64,000 nucleotides of DNA from contig NZ_KB375281.1 of assembly GCF_000336555.1 (NCBI RefSeq), positions 1,344,713 through 1,408,712 of the forward strand, read 5' to 3'. The notes beneath the pieces were generated by a model. The model saw only the letters and a list, made by a program, of their open reading frames with translations, had not been told where the DNA came from and ran no database searches. The DNA comes from Afipia clevelandensis ATCC 49720 (lineage in GTDB: Bacteria; Pseudomonadota; Alphaproteobacteria; Rhizobiales; Xanthobacteraceae). Position 1 is the stretch's first letter. Each line of letters begins with the position of its first letter. Below are positions 9,734 through 63,927 of this stretch, piece after piece. The position numbers and the translations under genes are program-made.

Positions 9734-9935
9734 GGGTTTCCTCGTGTCGATCATTGAGAGCCTTGAGTGGATCATCTGCGACTCTTCGATTCATTGCGGC
9801 GGTACGGCCCACCGATGAACCGGTTTGGCCTGCCCGGGGAATACGTGAATTGACCCATAGGACGCGGGTTCCCGAGGGGTTGAGCCGGTATCAGGCGAGA
9901 ATCAGTGGAGCGGGAATCGATAAGACGCGCAGGCG

Positions 9936-10043
9936 CTAAAGCCGCGCGCAGAGAAACATCAGGTTCAGCGAGCACGCAGCCAGCAGAACGAGCATCAACG
10001 CGACCTGCAGCCGGTCGCCGGCGAATTTGAGAATCGGCCTCAT
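9936..10043 (-). CDS. Possible 35-residue single-pass membrane peptide
   Basis: This short frame (ATG 10043, TAG 9936-9938) encodes a basic N-terminus (MRPILKFAGDRLQ) followed by one strong hydrophobic segment (VALMLVLLAACSLNLMFLC) and ending ARL. It looks like a small inner-membrane protein. The LAAC could be read as a lipobox, but too little follows it for a mature lipoprotein. There is no convincing ribosome-binding site. The upstream 100 bases are packed with GANTC sites. Function unknown; it may be spurious. Confidence 0.35.
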   Translation of the reverse strand: MRPILKFAGDRLQVALMLVLLAACSLNLMFLCARL

Positions 10044-10138
10044 GATGTGAGGATGATGGAAAGACTCCGCGCAAGAGTCTCGAATCATATTTTTGATCTT
10101 GGCGGGCGAGGATTCAGGACTCGTTTACGAGTCGATTC
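10031..10138. promoter_or_regulatory. Dense cluster of GANTC (CcrM methylation-type) sites
   Basis: Eight GANTC sites occur in 108 bases: 10031, 10063, 10075, 10082, 10111, 10118, 10129 and 10134 (first base of each). Four more lie at 9780, 9788, 9899 and 9914. At this base composition roughly one per 250-300 bases is expected by chance. Several are paired as small palindromes, such as GACTCG-TTTA-CGAGTC at 10118-10133. In alphaproteobacteria GANTC is methylated by CcrM and read by GcrA. That function here is inference. Confidence 0.6.
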
Positions 10139-10168
10139 TCGGAAAAACCCCGAACACCAAACGCGAAA

Positions 10169-10188
10169 AGGCGCCCCAACGGGCGCCT
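10169..10188 (-). terminator. Rho-independent terminator downstream of the ldtR-like gene
   Basis: A perfect 8-bp stem (AGGCGCCC and GGGCGCCT, loop CAAC) is followed on the minus strand by TTTTCGCG. It lies about 160 bases past the stop of the MarR-family gene, the only gene that could feed it from that side. Confidence 0.7.
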
Positions 10189-10346
10189 AGTCGCATATCC
10201 CACACCAGGGGAAACTCGTGCGGAATTCTTCCGCGTGCGTCTTGCGCGCACTTCGGTAGCCAGCCGGAGGGCACCGGCCTCAATCATTTGCGAGAGGATC
10301 GAGAAAGGCCGCCGATCTTGCGCCGGCTTGGCCTGCTGTTCGATGC

Positions 10347-10856: not shown

Positions 10857-11166
10857 GACACTTCCCCTGTTGTCGTTTTTACGACTTATTCGACGAAACT
10901 TTTGTCTCGCCTGATAGGTGCAAACTTAAGGGAGGCGTTTGAAGATCAGCTTAAATAACAACATAAAGAGATGGTTTATTTAAAACGGTGAATCGTAAGT
11001 TACACCGATAAAATAAGGGCTTTTTGTTAGTTTTGATTCACCCAAAACGCCCCGATGTTCACGCTTCGTCGCAAACCCTGTCACGTTCCGGAACACCCAT
11101 CGTTCAAATTTGAAAGACTTCGTCAAACATCAAGGCGGCGCACCGCAGCAAAGGATAACAGCTTCA
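10857..11166. other. AT-rich promoter region upstream of the ldtR-like gene
   Basis: This stretch has no coding frame I can support. The part nearest the gene (10870-11040) is visibly AT-rich for this genome and includes a small dyad, GTCG-TTTTTA-CGAC, near 10873. It is a probable promoter and autoregulatory region. The rest up to the foldback elements shows nothing recognisable. Confidence 0.45.
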
Positions 11167-11241
11167 CCAGTGTCCTGAATCCGAAGTTCGTTTCATTTTG
11201 GAGCGAGCGCCCCGCGAACTTCGGATTCGAAAGGACACTGG
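11167..11241. repeat. Foldback (MITE-like) element 1
   Basis: Left arm 11167-11190 (starts CCAGTGTCCT, ends GAAGTTCG) pairs with right arm 11215-11241 at 24 of 24 positions. A 3-base insertion in the right arm, next to the outer 10-bp block, forms a bulge. The loop is 24 bases. A sister element of the same design follows 13 bases later. Confidence 0.8.
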
Positions 11242-11253
11242 CAATAATGGATC

Positions 11254-11328
11254 GTAGTGGTCCCTCGGTTCTGACATTCGCAGAGAGCCTGCTAAACCGG
11301 AATGCGAATGTCAGAACCGGACCACTAC
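11254..11328. repeat. Foldback (MITE-like) element 2
   Basis: Left arm 11254-11281 (GTAGTGGTCC onward) pairs with right arm 11304-11328 at 25 of 25 positions, with a 3-base bulge (CTC) in the left arm next to the outer 10-bp block. The loop is 22 bases. It matches the architecture of element 1 but not its inner sequence. Its right end overlaps the stop codon of the DUF6163-like gene (11325-11327). Confidence 0.8.
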
Positions 11329-11822
11329 GGCGGCCGTTCGCGGGCCGAAAACCAGGCCAGAACGAGATAGGCCGCGAGCAAAATCAGCGACACCAGCACC
11401 GCGAACAGGTTGCCACCGTAGATCGCGGGAAACATCAGTTCGATCACCGCGGTTGAAACGATGGTGGTGAGCCACACCACCGCGCCCCATGGCGTTGCGA
11501 GCCACAGCCCGACAGCGGCGACCAGTTCGATCACCGCGAAGTACACGGTGGCGGTTTGCCATTGCGTGGTCTGCGCCTCGAACGCGCCCTCCTCGCCGCC
11601 GATGAAGCCGGTGATCTGCGCCCAGTGATAGAGACCCTTGATCATCGACAGCACCGCCATCACGCGCAGGAACAGCACGAGGCGCGTGGTCCACGTCGTC
11701 TCGCCCGTCTCCGCATCCGGCGTCGTCATCGCCGTGACCAGATTGACCTGCTCGCGCGGCGCATCGTCGTTCGCGCCTTTCGGCATGCGCGCGGGCATGA
11801 TCTGACGGATATTCTTGCTCAT
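11325..11822 (-). CDS. Small membrane protein, DUF6163-like
   Basis: The 165-residue protein has a polar N-terminus of about 45 residues and four hydrophobic segments: TRLVLFLRVMAVLSMIKGLYHW near residue 46, ATVYFAVIELVAAVGLWLA near 90, AVVWLTTIVSTAVIELMF near 113, and LFAVLVSLILLAAYLVLAWF near 138. It resembles the DUF6163 family of Rhizobiales inner-membrane proteins, whose function is unknown. The domain name is from memory and should be checked. Its stop codon lies inside foldback element 2, so the C-terminus (SARERPP) may have been shaped by that insertion. It is divergent from hemB. Confidence 0.7.
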   Translation of the reverse strand: MSKNIRQIMPARMPKGANDDAPREQVNLVTAMTTPDAETGETTWTTRLVLFLRVMAVLSMIKGLYHWAQITGFIGGEEGAFEAQTTQWQTATVYFAVIELVAAVGLWLATPWGAVVWLTTIVSTAVIELMFPAIYGGNLFAVLVSLILLAAYLVLAWFSARERPP

Positions 11823-39467: not shown

Positions 39468-40033
39468 CTCAACTCTCCCGAATTCCCGCCGCGGCGGGCG
39501 CGGCTCCTGTCATGATCCGATGTGACGCACTGTTGTTTAAGGCGCGTATTCCGCAAAACCGGCTGGTCAATCCTGCGGAATACGCGCTCGCCGTTTGCCG
39601 GCTTGTTGCGATCATATGACCCGTAAAATTTGAATCGCGGTTTAAGCATCGCGATGAATCGAATCTGAACGCGGCTTGCGGGCCGAATCGGAGAAATCGC
39701 AGAAAGCAGCAATTTTCAGCCACTTCTCACCAGGCGAGAGAATCGATTCACCTTCGCATTTGGCGAAGCGATAACCATTGTTCGTTGAAGCCCTACAGAG
39801 AGAGCCCGCGCGCAGGCTTAATCGAAAGCCACGCCTGTTCGATGCCCGGGATCATGAAAGAGCACGGCGAGGCAAAAGCGCTCGATGCGCGCGCCTGGAC
39901 AAGGACTGCGATCTGGAAAATGGGCCGCCGGGATCCGCTCTGAGCGGGATGCGGGCGGACAAAAAAACGAGGGCGTCGGTGAACACGCCAGGACAGAGAT
40001 CCCGCCGGATGGACCTGCCGAAGCAGATGTCCG
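39468..40033. other. Long intergenic region upstream of the Sel1-like gene
   Basis: I see no gene I can support. Open frames here have no ribosome-binding site or family resemblance. The notable content is the GANTC cluster at 39632-39749, followed further right by the hairpin array. Confidence 0.5.
39632..39749. promoter_or_regulatory. Second cluster of GANTC sites
   Basis: Six GANTC sites lie in 118 bases, at 39632, 39656, 39661, 39685, 39740 and 39745. Two pairs are directly abutted (GAATCGAATC and GAATCGATTC). The cluster is 165-280 bases upstream of the Sel1-like gene. CcrM/GcrA control is inference. Confidence 0.5.
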
Positions 40034-61094: not shown

Positions 61095-61141
61095 GAATCT
61101 TGCGATTCCGGCCTGCGTACCCCCGTTAAGTTATTGGAATC
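61095..61141 (+). promoter_or_regulatory. Three GANTC sites in the topA promoter region
   Basis: GANTC sites lie at 61095, 61104 and 61137 within the last 50 bases before topA (start 61144). This is denser than chance, and a possible CcrM/GcrA link to replication-associated expression is inference. Confidence 0.35.
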
Positions 61142-61143
61142 AA

Positions 61144-63927
61144 ATGAATCTCGTCATTGTCGAGTCGCCTGCCAAGGCCAAGACGATCAACAAGTATTTG
61201 GGCTCCTCCTACGAGGTTTTGGCCTCGTACGGCCATGTCCGCGACCTTCCGGCCAAGAATGGATCGGTCGATCCGGACGCCGATTTCCAGATGATCTGGG
61301 AAACCGATCCCAAGGCCGCCGGCCGCCTGAACGATATTGCCAAGGCCCTGAAGGGTGCCGACAAACTGATCCTCGCAACCGACCCTGATCGCGAAGGCGA
61401 GGCGATCTCCTGGCACGTCCTGGAGATCATGAAGCAGAAGCGCGCGCTCAAGGACCAGAAGGTCGAGCGCGTTGTCTTCAACGCCATCACCAAACAGTCC
61501 GTCACCGAGGCGATGCAGCATCCCCGCCAGATCGACGGCGCGCTTGTCGACGCCTATATGGCGCGCCGTGCGCTGGATTATCTGGTCGGCTTCACCCTCT
61601 CCCCTGTTCTCTGGCGCAAGCTGCCCGGCGCCCGCTCCGCCGGACGTGTGCAGTCCGTTGCCCTGCGGCTGGTCTGCGACCGCGAACTCGAAATCGAAAA
61701 ATTCGTCGCGAAGGAATACTGGTCGCTGCTGGCGACATTAATCACCCCGCGCGGCGACAGCTTCGAGGCCCGCCTTGTCGGCGCAGATGGCCGCAAGCTG
61801 CAGCGCCTCGATATCGGCACCGGCGCGGAGGCCGAGGATTTCAGGAAGGCGCTGGAAGCTGCAAACTTCACCGTCACGGCGGTCGAAGCCAAGCCGGCGC
61901 GGCGCAATCCGCAGTCACCGTTCACCACCTCGACCCTGCAGCAGGAAGCCAGCCGCAAGCTCGGCTTTGCGCCCGCGCACACCATGCGCATCGCGCAGCG
62001 TCTTTATGAAGGTATCGACATCGGCGGCGAGACCACCGGTCTCATTACTTATATGCGTACCGACGGCGTCTCGATCGCGCCCGAGGCGGTCACGCAGGTG
62101 CGCAAGGTCATCGGCGAGGACTACGGCAAAAACTACGTTCCGGACTCTCCGCGCCAGTACACTTCCAAGGCCAAGAACGCGCAGGAAGCCCACGAAGCCA
62201 TCCGCCCGACCGATCTGTCGCGCCGCCCGGCCTCGCTGAAGGCCCGGCTCGATAACGACCAGTTCCGTCTTTATGAACTGATCTGGATGCGCACCGTCGC
62301 GAGCCAGATGGAATCGGCGGAACTCGAACGCACCACTGTCGATATCGCCGCCAAGGCGGGCGCGCGCACGCTCGAACTGCGCGCCACCGGCCAGGTGGTG
62401 AAGTTCGACGGTTTCCTTGCGGTCTATCAGGAAGGCCGCGACGACGACCCGGACGACGAAGACTCAAAGCGCCTTCCGGTCATCAACCAGGGTGAGAGCG
62501 TCAAGCGCGAGAAGCTCGATGTCACCCAGCATTTCACCGAGCCGCCGCCGCGCTTCTCGGAAGCCTCGCTGGTCAAGCGCATGGAAGAGCTCGGCATCGG
62601 CCGGCCCTCCACCTATGCGTCGATCATCCAGGTGCTGAAGGATCGCGGCTATGTGAAGCTCGAAAAGAAGCGCCTGCATGGCGAGGACAAGGGCCGCGTC
62701 GTCGTGGCCTTCCTCGAGAATTACTTCGCGCGCTATGTCGAGTTCGACTTCACCGCCGACCTTGAGGAAAAACTCGACAAGATTTCCAACAACGAGATCG
62801 CCTGGAAACAGGTGCTGGCCGATTTTTGGCGCGACTTCATCGGCGCTGTCGACGACATCAAGGATGTCCGTGTCACTGAAGTGCTCGACGTGCTCGATGC
62901 CATGCTCGGCGAACACATTTACGAGCCGCGCGCCGATGGCGGCGATCCGCGCCAGTGCCCGAGCTGCGGCACCGGCAAGCTCAACCTGAAGGCCGGCAAG
63001 TTCGGCGCGTTCGTCGGGTGCTCGAATTATCCCGAATGCCGCTACACCCGCCCCCTCGCCGCCTCCAGCGGGCAGAGCGATCGTCCGCTCGGCAAGGACC
63101 CGGTCTCCGGTCTTGAGGTCGCGGTAAAGGCCGGCAGGTTCGGTCCGTATATCCAGCTCGGCGAGCCGAAGGATTACGGCGAGGACGAGAAGCCGAAGCG
63201 CGCGGGTATTCCGAAGAACATGTCGCCCGCCGATGTCGAACTCGAACTCGCGCTGAAGCTGCTGTCGCTGCCGCGCGACATCGGTCCGCATCCGGAAGAC
63301 GGCGAAGTCATCACCGCCGGCATCGGGCGCTTCGGTCCGTTCGTGCGTCATGGCAAGACCTATGCGAGCCTCGAAGCTGGCGACGATGTTTACAACGTCG
63401 GCCTCAACCGCGCGGTGACGCTGATCGCCGAGAAGGTTGCCAAGGGCCCGAGCCGCCGTTTCGGCGCGGACCCCGGCAAGGAGGTCGGCGACTACCCCGC
63501 GCGCGGCGGCAAGATCATGCTCAAGAAGGGCCGTTACGGCGCTTACGTCACCATTGACGGCATCAACGCGACCATCCCCGACAGCATCGAGCCGGAAAAG
63601 CTGACCATCGCGGAAGCCATCGCCCTGATCGAGGAACGCGCGACCAAGACCGGCGGCAAGCCCAAGCGCGGCGGTACCAAGAAGACCGCAAAGAAGGCTG
63701 CGAAACCTGCCGCTGAAACCAGTGACGACGCCGCATCCGCCAAATCTGCAAAGAAGCCCGCAGCAAAGAAGAAGGCTGCGGCGAAAAAGGCTGCTCCCAA
63801 GAAGGACGCAGCCGAGCCCGTCTCCTTGAAGGAAGCTGCCGCCGCCAAGGCCAAGGCATCGAAGGTTGCCGCGGCCAAGGTCACCAAGGTCGCGGAAAAG
63901 AAGAGCGCCGGTAAAGCACGCGGATAA
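61144..63927 (+). CDS. topA: DNA topoisomerase I
   Basis: TopA relaxes negative supercoils by single-strand cleavage. The 927-residue protein has the Toprim start MNLVIVESPAKAKTINKYLG and LILATDPDREGEAISWHV near residue 75. The catalytic Tyr lies in TGLITYMRTDGV (about Y303), and GIGRPSTYASII is near 482. One zinc-ribbon repeat (CPSCGTGKLNLKAGK with FVGCSNYPECRY) is near residue 603, followed by further degenerate C-terminal repeats. The last 85 residues form a Lys/Ala-rich, histone-H1-like tail (KKPAAKKKAAAKKAAPKKD), as in other high-GC bacteria. rnr starts in the topA stop (TAATG). Confidence 0.97.
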   Translation: MNLVIVESPAKAKTINKYLGSSYEVLASYGHVRDLPAKNGSVDPDADFQMIWETDPKAAGRLNDIAKALKGADKLILATDPDREGEAISWHVLEIMKQKRALKDQKVERVVFNAITKQSVTEAMQHPRQIDGALVDAYMARRALDYLVGFTLSPVLWRKLPGARSAGRVQSVALRLVCDRELEIEKFVAKEYWSLLATLITPRGDSFEARLVGADGRKLQRLDIGTGAEAEDFRKALEAANFTVTAVEAKPARRNPQSPFTTSTLQQEASRKLGFAPAHTMRIAQRLYEGIDIGGETTGLITYMRTDGVSIAPEAVTQVRKVIGEDYGKNYVPDSPRQYTSKAKNAQEAHEAIRPTDLSRRPASLKARLDNDQFRLYELIWMRTVASQMESAELERTTVDIAAKAGARTLELRATGQVVKFDGFLAVYQEGRDDDPDDEDSKRLPVINQGESVKREKLDVTQHFTEPPPRFSEASLVKRMEELGIGRPSTYASIIQVLKDRGYVKLEKKRLHGEDKGRVVVAFLENYFARYVEFDFTADLEEKLDKISNNEIAWKQVLADFWRDFIGAVDDIKDVRVTEVLDVLDAMLGEHIYEPRADGGDPRQCPSCGTGKLNLKAGKFGAFVGCSNYPECRYTRPLAASSGQSDRPLGKDPVSGLEVAVKAGRFGPYIQLGEPKDYGEDEKPKRAGIPKNMSPADVELELALKLLSLPRDIGPHPEDGEVITAGIGRFGPFVRHGKTYASLEAGDDVYNVGLNRAVTLIAEKVAKGPSRRFGADPGKEVGDYPARGGKIMLKKGRYGAYVTIDGINATIPDSIEPEKLTIAEAIALIEERATKTGGKPKRGGTKKTAKKAAKPAAETSDDAASAKSAKKPAAKKKAAAKKAAPKKDAAEPVSLKEAAAAKAKASKVAAAKVTKVAEKKSAGKARG

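Follow-up and report, generated by a model that had tools for sequence, protein, structure and literature searches.

A conserved GANTC-rich promoter region of a 35-residue hydrophobic peptide in Afipia and related genera, probably under GcrA/CcrM-type control

By comparative evidence, a cluster of GANTC sites in Afipia clevelandensis is the conserved promoter region of a minus-strand gene for a 35-residue peptide. We consider it rather probable that this is a GcrA/CcrM-type, perhaps CtrA-linked promoter, and that it drives a near-leaderless gene whose product is an inner-membrane peptide; chromosome copying, together with the cell-cycle machinery, would probably time the production of this peptide. 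Coordinates refer to the window, i.e., the whole 64,000-nt stretch of DNA that was analysed.

Density and background of the GANTC sites

The eight GANTC sites announced in the original prediction were all found by a count of the window letters, at 10031-10138 (108 bp). Four more had been placed in the preceding 250 bases; all of them exist, starting at 9780, 9788, 9899, and 9914, the first one base outside that span. The assumed background of one site per 250-300 bases proved too high: the whole window contains 137 GANTC against 331 expected from dinucleotide shuffles, or about one per 467 bp. A sample of 464 kb, about one tenth of the genome and made up of the window and 20 further segments of 20 kb, is depleted in GANTC as well, with 1076 sites observed and 2422 expected under a first-order model. 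The densest run in this sample is the cluster itself; the runner-up has 5 sites in 108 bp, and the region is without an equal in the sampled tenth. Among 16 palindromic 5-mer types of the form XYNY'X', comparable counts per 108 bp were reached by CGNCG (10) and GCNGC (9) only, both of which are 8-9 times commoner than GANTC in the window.

Conservation of the block and range of the peptide

Comparisons were made with a genus set of 29 genomes and a family set of 296 genomes from 47 genera, where g1 is Afipia, g26 is Tardiphaga, g25 is probably Bradyrhizobium, and g28 is presumably Rhodopseudomonas. By DNA search, the block 9936-10141 was matched in 23 of the 29 genus genomes, in many of them without its flanks, and in distant members of the genus the match is mainly limited to this block. 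The block runs from GAATC-GACTC at the upstream end to the stop codon of the minus-strand 35-residue ORF at the downstream end, and the peptide and promoter are kept together in 23/29 genus genomes. Most GANTC sites in the aligned genus block are kept while the intervening bases drift, which is the pattern of conservation in relatives that a regulatory role of the sites had been expected to leave.

A scan of named genomes with the 17-base box core returned 78 records. In 58 of them, 5 or more GANTC fall within ~120 bp; these belong to Bradyrhizobium, Afipia, Tardiphaga, or relatives whose names are less precise, and 55 have a 35- or 36-residue ORF at the expected place; the remaining 20 come from unrelated organisms, with at most 3 GANTC each. 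Since the 58 loci were selected by DNA, they were left out of the promoter statistics.

The peptide profile matches 94 of the 296 genomes of this family of soil bacteria, belonging to 11 of the 47 genera; 92 of the 94 have just one matching place. The type-1 peptide is absent at E 0.001 from 6/29 genus genomes, two of which are 99% complete. Among 397 genomes of the order, the peptide profile gave 16 matches and the promoter model 17 (strict filters), all in the own family and none outside it. A class search with a widened peptide profile gave 2 weak matches outside the family among 337 genomes. Two g26 genomes, G131 and G215, have two type-1-like copies each (L161 and L181), and the second copies retain a GACTC-N8-GAATC pair.

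Promoter anatomy

The features of the region are listed below, from the coding sequence outward.

9936..10043, minus strand: coding sequence of the hydrophobic 35-residue peptide MRPILKFAGDRLQVALMLVLLAACSLNLMFLCARL, which has a single hydrophobic stretch of helix length (translation, hydropathy, pN/pS, family alignments)
10031..10035, unstranded: GANTC inside the peptide coding sequence, at ~+10 from the predicted start (kept in aligned genus copies)
10053..10058, minus strand: predicted -10, CATCAT (NATNNT)
10063..10067, unstranded: GANTC in the spacer between the predicted -35 and -10, with a free centre
10075..10079, minus strand: GACTC, contained in the predicted -35
10082..10086, unstranded: extra GANTC, present only in some close relatives (alignment)
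10088..10094, minus strand: A-tract AAAAATA, UP-element-like (invariant AAAA among 28 promoters)
10113..10127, minus strand: CtrA-like box TAAA-N7-TGAA, containing or overlapping two GANTC here
10129..10138, unstranded: two GANTC side by side where the conserved block ends upstream
10163..10194, minus strand: GC-rich hairpin followed by TTTT (inverted repeat I3; unflagged by a simple terminator scan)

Statistics were collected on 71 unique upstream regions obtained from 96 places found with the peptide profile. They have a mean of 4.83 GANTC per 115 nt, compared with 0.42 in shuffled sequences and 1.14 for the next palindromic 5-mer; 4-8 sites are present in 59/71 promoters and 3-8 in 67/71. 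A pair GACTC-N7/8-GANTC is found in 65 promoters and is absent from 6. Its first site is GACTC in all 65 cases, and the second, in the spacer, is GAATC in 51, GACTC in 8, and GAGTC in 6. Within the genus, the pair is absent at the type-1 locus in 2/23 genomes. Four nt past the second GANTC, NATNNT follows in 62/65, where chance would give ~0.01 per sequence. In 28 promoters hand-picked for diversity (g3, g43, g45, and g8 being left out), the invariant columns include AAAA, GACTC, GA.TC (free centre),.AT..T, and ATG; at the spacer site G, A, T, and C are kept, and the centre and neighbouring bases vary, again as the prediction of conserved sites would have it. As the seeds of the peptide profile were loci of g1, g20, g25, and g26 chosen by DNA, the other genera are a cleaner test: in genera that gave no row to the profile, the GANTC pair is present in 15 and GACTC in 18 of 21 promoters. 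Chance or mutational accumulation of GANTC would have to account for both this density and the positional conservation across genera in promoters collected by their peptide, and we regard it as a negligible explanation.

The distance from the -10 to ATG is 6-10 nt in 59/65 promoters, and a Shine-Dalgarno-like 4-mer is present in only 4/71. Because of this short distance and the scarcity of Shine-Dalgarno sequences, the peptide mRNA is predicted to be leaderless or nearly so. In some genera the GANTC corresponding to 10031..10035 lies upstream of ATG, the start codon being further on. A simple sigma70 scan gave no promoter at the cluster, and no near-consensus sigma70 hexamers were found there, which fits a promoter in need of a helper; with such a weak -35 and -10 an activator is probably needed.

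Two other placements of the promoter were discarded. In the first (-35 CTGAAT, -10 AAAAAT) the spacing is not conserved; in the second, with TAGAAT over the spacer GANTC as the -10, the key A varies (A 32, G 29, C 3, T 1).

The simplest rival to a GcrA/CcrM-type reading is a conserved peptide promoter used by an ordinary transcription factor, with methylation irrelevant and the GANTC incidental, the -35 and the box reading GACTC and GAGTC by coincidence. The main argument for it is that paralogues in the genus often lack the spacer GANTC (see below); moreover, the first site of the pair is always GACTC, which is more than a methylase needs, and 8 of 11 g28 promoters keep the upstream box with no GANTC in it. 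The main argument against it is the spacer site, which is a GANTC in 65/71 promoters with three different centre bases, the other four being invariant among the 28. In addition, GANTC is depleted in the sampled genome, yet 59/71 promoters have 4-8 sites per 115 nt. On balance we hold the incidental presence of GANTC to be unlikely, if worth serious attention, and prefer methylation-linked control.

The upstream box and the palindrome

A box TWAA-N7-TDAA is present in 66/71 promoters, against 0.3 percent in shuffles; it usually has CGAG inside N7, and its first half is a strict TTAA in just 24/71. The distance from the box core to GACTC, measurable in 66/71 promoters and not in the other 5, is 36 nt in 46 promoters (six genera) and 47 nt in 20 (five genera); correspondingly, in the 62 promoters where it was measured, the box end precedes GACTC by 22 nt (44 promoters) or 33 nt (18). 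The two spacings are 11 bp, or one helical turn, apart and occur in several lineages, a pattern that a protein working from a single face of the helix would leave. In g28, 8/11 promoters have no GANTC in the box, e.g., TTAACGAGTGTTAAATC; thus part of the cluster appears to be a different, CtrA-like box, which contains GANTC in this genus.

In Caulobacter, CtrA-activated promoters mostly carry the CtrA site at the -35, and natural CtrA sites also depart from TTAA-N7-TTAA (both from excerpts of PMC11264516). The peptide promoters resemble CtrA-controlled promoters in a box of the TWAA-N7-TDAA type, the fixed helical phase, and deviation from the consensus; however, the CtrA site there mostly overlaps the -35, whereas the box described here, a putative CtrA site, lies upstream of it and usually has CGAG in N7. 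At the ccrM-like loci of three genus members (L110, L111, and L112), two GANTC stand directly before ATG, with a TTAA-N7-TTTA box upstream.

The cluster contains a 16-bp palindrome, GACTCGTAAACGAGTC, that is exact in 17/23 genus genomes and broken in 6; it is lost in the other genera, where the box core is retained. One could see in this palindrome the basis of a cis element or of a non-coding RNA with structure, in view of its exactness in the 17 genomes and of the lack of any second place in the own genome with fewer than three mismatches to it. The breaks in 6/23 genomes and the loss from other genera despite the retained box core speak against such an element, as does the constraint downstream, which follows codons. 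No Rfam family was found at the gathering score, and the one sub-threshold ribozyme match lies outside the cluster. We consider this explanation very improbable. A small RNA, BjsR1, is described in B. japonicum with relatives in Rhodopseudomonas (excerpts of PMC5082802).

The 35-residue peptide

Family alignments reveal a near-invariant A-C-x-x-N in the peptide. The median pairwise pN/pS is 0.18 over 639 pairs from 90 distinct peptide sequences, a value that leans low because selection required a loose residue motif and two or more upstream GANTC. With this coding constraint, the ORF is taken as a real protein. Pfam, NCBIfam, and PHROGs gave only isolated weak single-member matches to it, and it had no match in PADLOC or among solved structures. 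The best reading, and in our opinion a fairly probable one, is a new family of micro-membrane proteins, whose role may be that of a cell-cycle-timed membrane regulator.

Another candidate is a hydrophobic peptide of phage origin or resembling type I toxins, behind a strong promoter, with the GANTC array tuning the synthesis of a toxic product; this would agree with the small size, the one hydrophobic stretch, and the occurrence of the unit beside different genes. We find it improbable, as no phage or plasmid record matches the window block in blastn, PADLOC gives no match and PHROGs one weak single-member match, and the peptide has one place per genome in 92/94 genomes.

SidA of Caulobacter is a short bitopic cell-division peptide of ~30-35 residues under the control of a regulator. 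The size and the one hydrophobic stretch, and presumably the regulator control, are common to both; SidA is named here by this general likeness and not by sequence relation to the 35-residue peptide. Peptides of the SOS-induced SidA/TisB type have a LexA box in the promoter; in contrast, the alphaproteobacterial LexA box GTTC-N7-GTTC (excerpts of PMC7987155) was found on either strand in 0/71 peptide promoters.

Evidence for a probable GcrA/CcrM control

In Caulobacter, replication-fork passage leads to hemimethylation, and CcrM comes as a late pulse. Most of what is known of CcrM methylation as a clock comes from promoters of Caulobacter, where the start site usually has a single GANTC nearby; the targets are rewired from group to group. 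Caulobacter promoters under GcrA/CcrM control include ctrA P1, mipZ, podJ, and ftsN. A GANTC between -35 and -10 has been linked there to promoters switched on 40-60 min into the cycle (excerpts of PMC4287350), GcrA prefers methylated DNA in Caulobacter and other Alphaproteobacteria (excerpts of PMC3667746), and the ftsN promoter falls to 14 percent when its GANTC is changed (excerpts of PMC3885167).

The own genome has both gcrA and a ccrM-like gene, as the regulatory reading had presupposed. GcrA (PF07750) was found in 27/29 genus genomes, the control set being matched in Caulobacter and, oddly, in Sulfolobus; the CcrM-type RAMA domain was also found in 27/29, in 26 of them above the cut-off. 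Genus genomes without a GcrA or RAMA match are 83-84% complete. The extended motif YGAKTCK, again from excerpts of PMC7987155, is met at 36/65 spacer sites.

The peptide promoters have in common with the Caulobacter GcrA/CcrM promoters a GANTC between the (here predicted) -35 and -10 and the presence of gcrA and ccrM-like genes in the genome; ctrA P1 has a CtrA input, perhaps likewise present here. They differ in that GACTC also forms the predicted -35 and that the target is an unnamed 35-residue peptide with a predicted leaderless or near-leaderless mRNA. Moreover, 67/71 promoters have 3-8 GANTC per 115 nt, whereas among Caulobacter cell-cycle start sites with GANTC 11/96 have more than one within 50 bp (excerpts of PMC4287350), the two spans being different. 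The Caulobacter precedents for GcrA and GANTC, as far as these excerpts go, and the apparent need of the promoter for a helper favor GcrA/CcrM control with a CtrA-like second input. The methylation-sensitive switch of the original prediction is partly supported, by density in the sampled tenth of the genome, conservation, and the presence of the genes, but the GANTC in the box is absent in g28, and methylation and binding enter as inferred steps.

As for methylation, the binding of GcrA and CtrA, the start site, timing, and function, we infer the following course of events. RNA polymerase would use a weak -35 (NNGACTC) and -10 (NATNNT), and GcrA, acting with sigma70, would switch the promoter on at the CcrM-methylated spacer GANTC. 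Timing would come from fork passage, with its hemimethylation, and from the late CcrM pulse. The TWAA-N7-TDAA box, on a constant face of the helix, would be bound by CtrA or a similar regulator as a second cell-cycle input. Transcription would start at ATG or a few bases before it, giving a leaderless or near-leaderless mRNA.

The regulatory principle is already known; the peptide family, the multi-GANTC design with a two-phase box, and the leaderless prediction are apparently new, and none of the three was met in the literature searched, part of it in excerpts. Natural variation among many genera reveals the methylation sites, factor box, phasing, and -35/-10 of this promoter, and its gene product is absent, beyond isolated weak matches, from the protein-family libraries searched. 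For Bradyrhizobium and its relatives, the promoter would serve as a ready-made reporter of transcription timed by methylation, and the peptide is a candidate for a role in the cell cycle.

A paralogous second locus

Paralogy was observed with R1, a sequence-only promoter model that takes in the first few codons. Run over the genus, it gave 39 matches besides the main ones, and 12 of these are at or just upstream of, and on the same strand as, one of 31 weak peptide-profile matches, where by a rough estimate ~0.001 would be expected. Relatives have a paralogous locus, and apparently so does the own genome: a probable second locus is found at G000:C1 ~1,583,900 (L254, 1583700-1584230), ~230 kb from the window copy, where a 39-residue peptide ends in NAWCLSAYL. 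This locus has no spacer GANTC but keeps GACTC at the -35 and the early-codon GATTC. It is outside the 12 co-located matches, its R1 score is E 0.05 only, and its E-value in the widened-profile class search holds by construction; it is accepted as a paralogue by its likeness to the sequences of relatives.

In the retrieved regions, 24 paralogues of the genus were selected; in 16 of them GACTC is followed after 16 nt by a TCARAT -10, and in 12 of these the next ATG comes 6-7 nt later. The GACTC-GANTC pair was detected in 9/24 by script and in 2 more by eye (11/24). Genomes G012 and G013 lack type 1, yet have the second locus.

Tentatively, and with less confidence than for the promoter itself, we suggest a family of membrane peptides of 24-40 residues (type 1, type 2 at G000:C1 ~1,583,900, and short forms elsewhere) that would be clocked by replication via a GANTC/CtrA-box promoter and translated from leaderless mRNA. 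If true, this would give the bacterial family a conserved module of cell-cycle output that protein-family libraries lack.

In other genera, the loci L262-L264, L267-L271, and L273 have peptides of ~24-33 residues behind a similar promoter; in several of them the start codon is further downstream and GATTC at ~+10 stays put. The R1 matches L266, L272, and L274-L276 have no clear intact peptide; at L266 and L272, in g20 and g26 genomes, a promoter-like stretch is followed by an apparently decayed peptide frame.

Neighboring genes and other clusters in the window

At Afipia loci, a MarR-type gene (Pfam), which we take to be ldtR-like, lies upstream of the peptide, and glyA-nrdR-ribD lie downstream. 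Neither the MarR-type gene nor glyA was detected in the examined Bradyrhizobium and Tardiphaga loci, up to 8 kb; the promoter-peptide unit stays together beside different neighbor genes, and this co-mobility is a plain observation. A mobile-element origin was set aside, the window copy having no plasmid or phage match in blastn.

The original prediction had set the cluster upstream of the 35-residue membrane peptide and, beyond it, a 51-residue protein. The first part fits, the cluster reading as the promoter of the peptide; the 51-residue ORF falls outside the unit and was dropped as a partner, being present in the loci of just 6 genus genomes. The hairpin at 10163..10194 is the probable end of the MarR-type gene transcript and would separate the peptide promoter from that gene.

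Between the MarR-type and DUF6163 genes, at ~11161-11330, two long inverted repeats lie close together and, judged by eye, resemble an intergenic repeat element. Elsewhere in the window, 6 GANTC in 118 bp occur at 39632-39749, in a stretch with no ORF of at least 100 residues. Finally, 5 GANTC in 72 bp (61095-61166) surround the start of a plus-strand gene at 61144-63927, presumably topA-like by its first residues.
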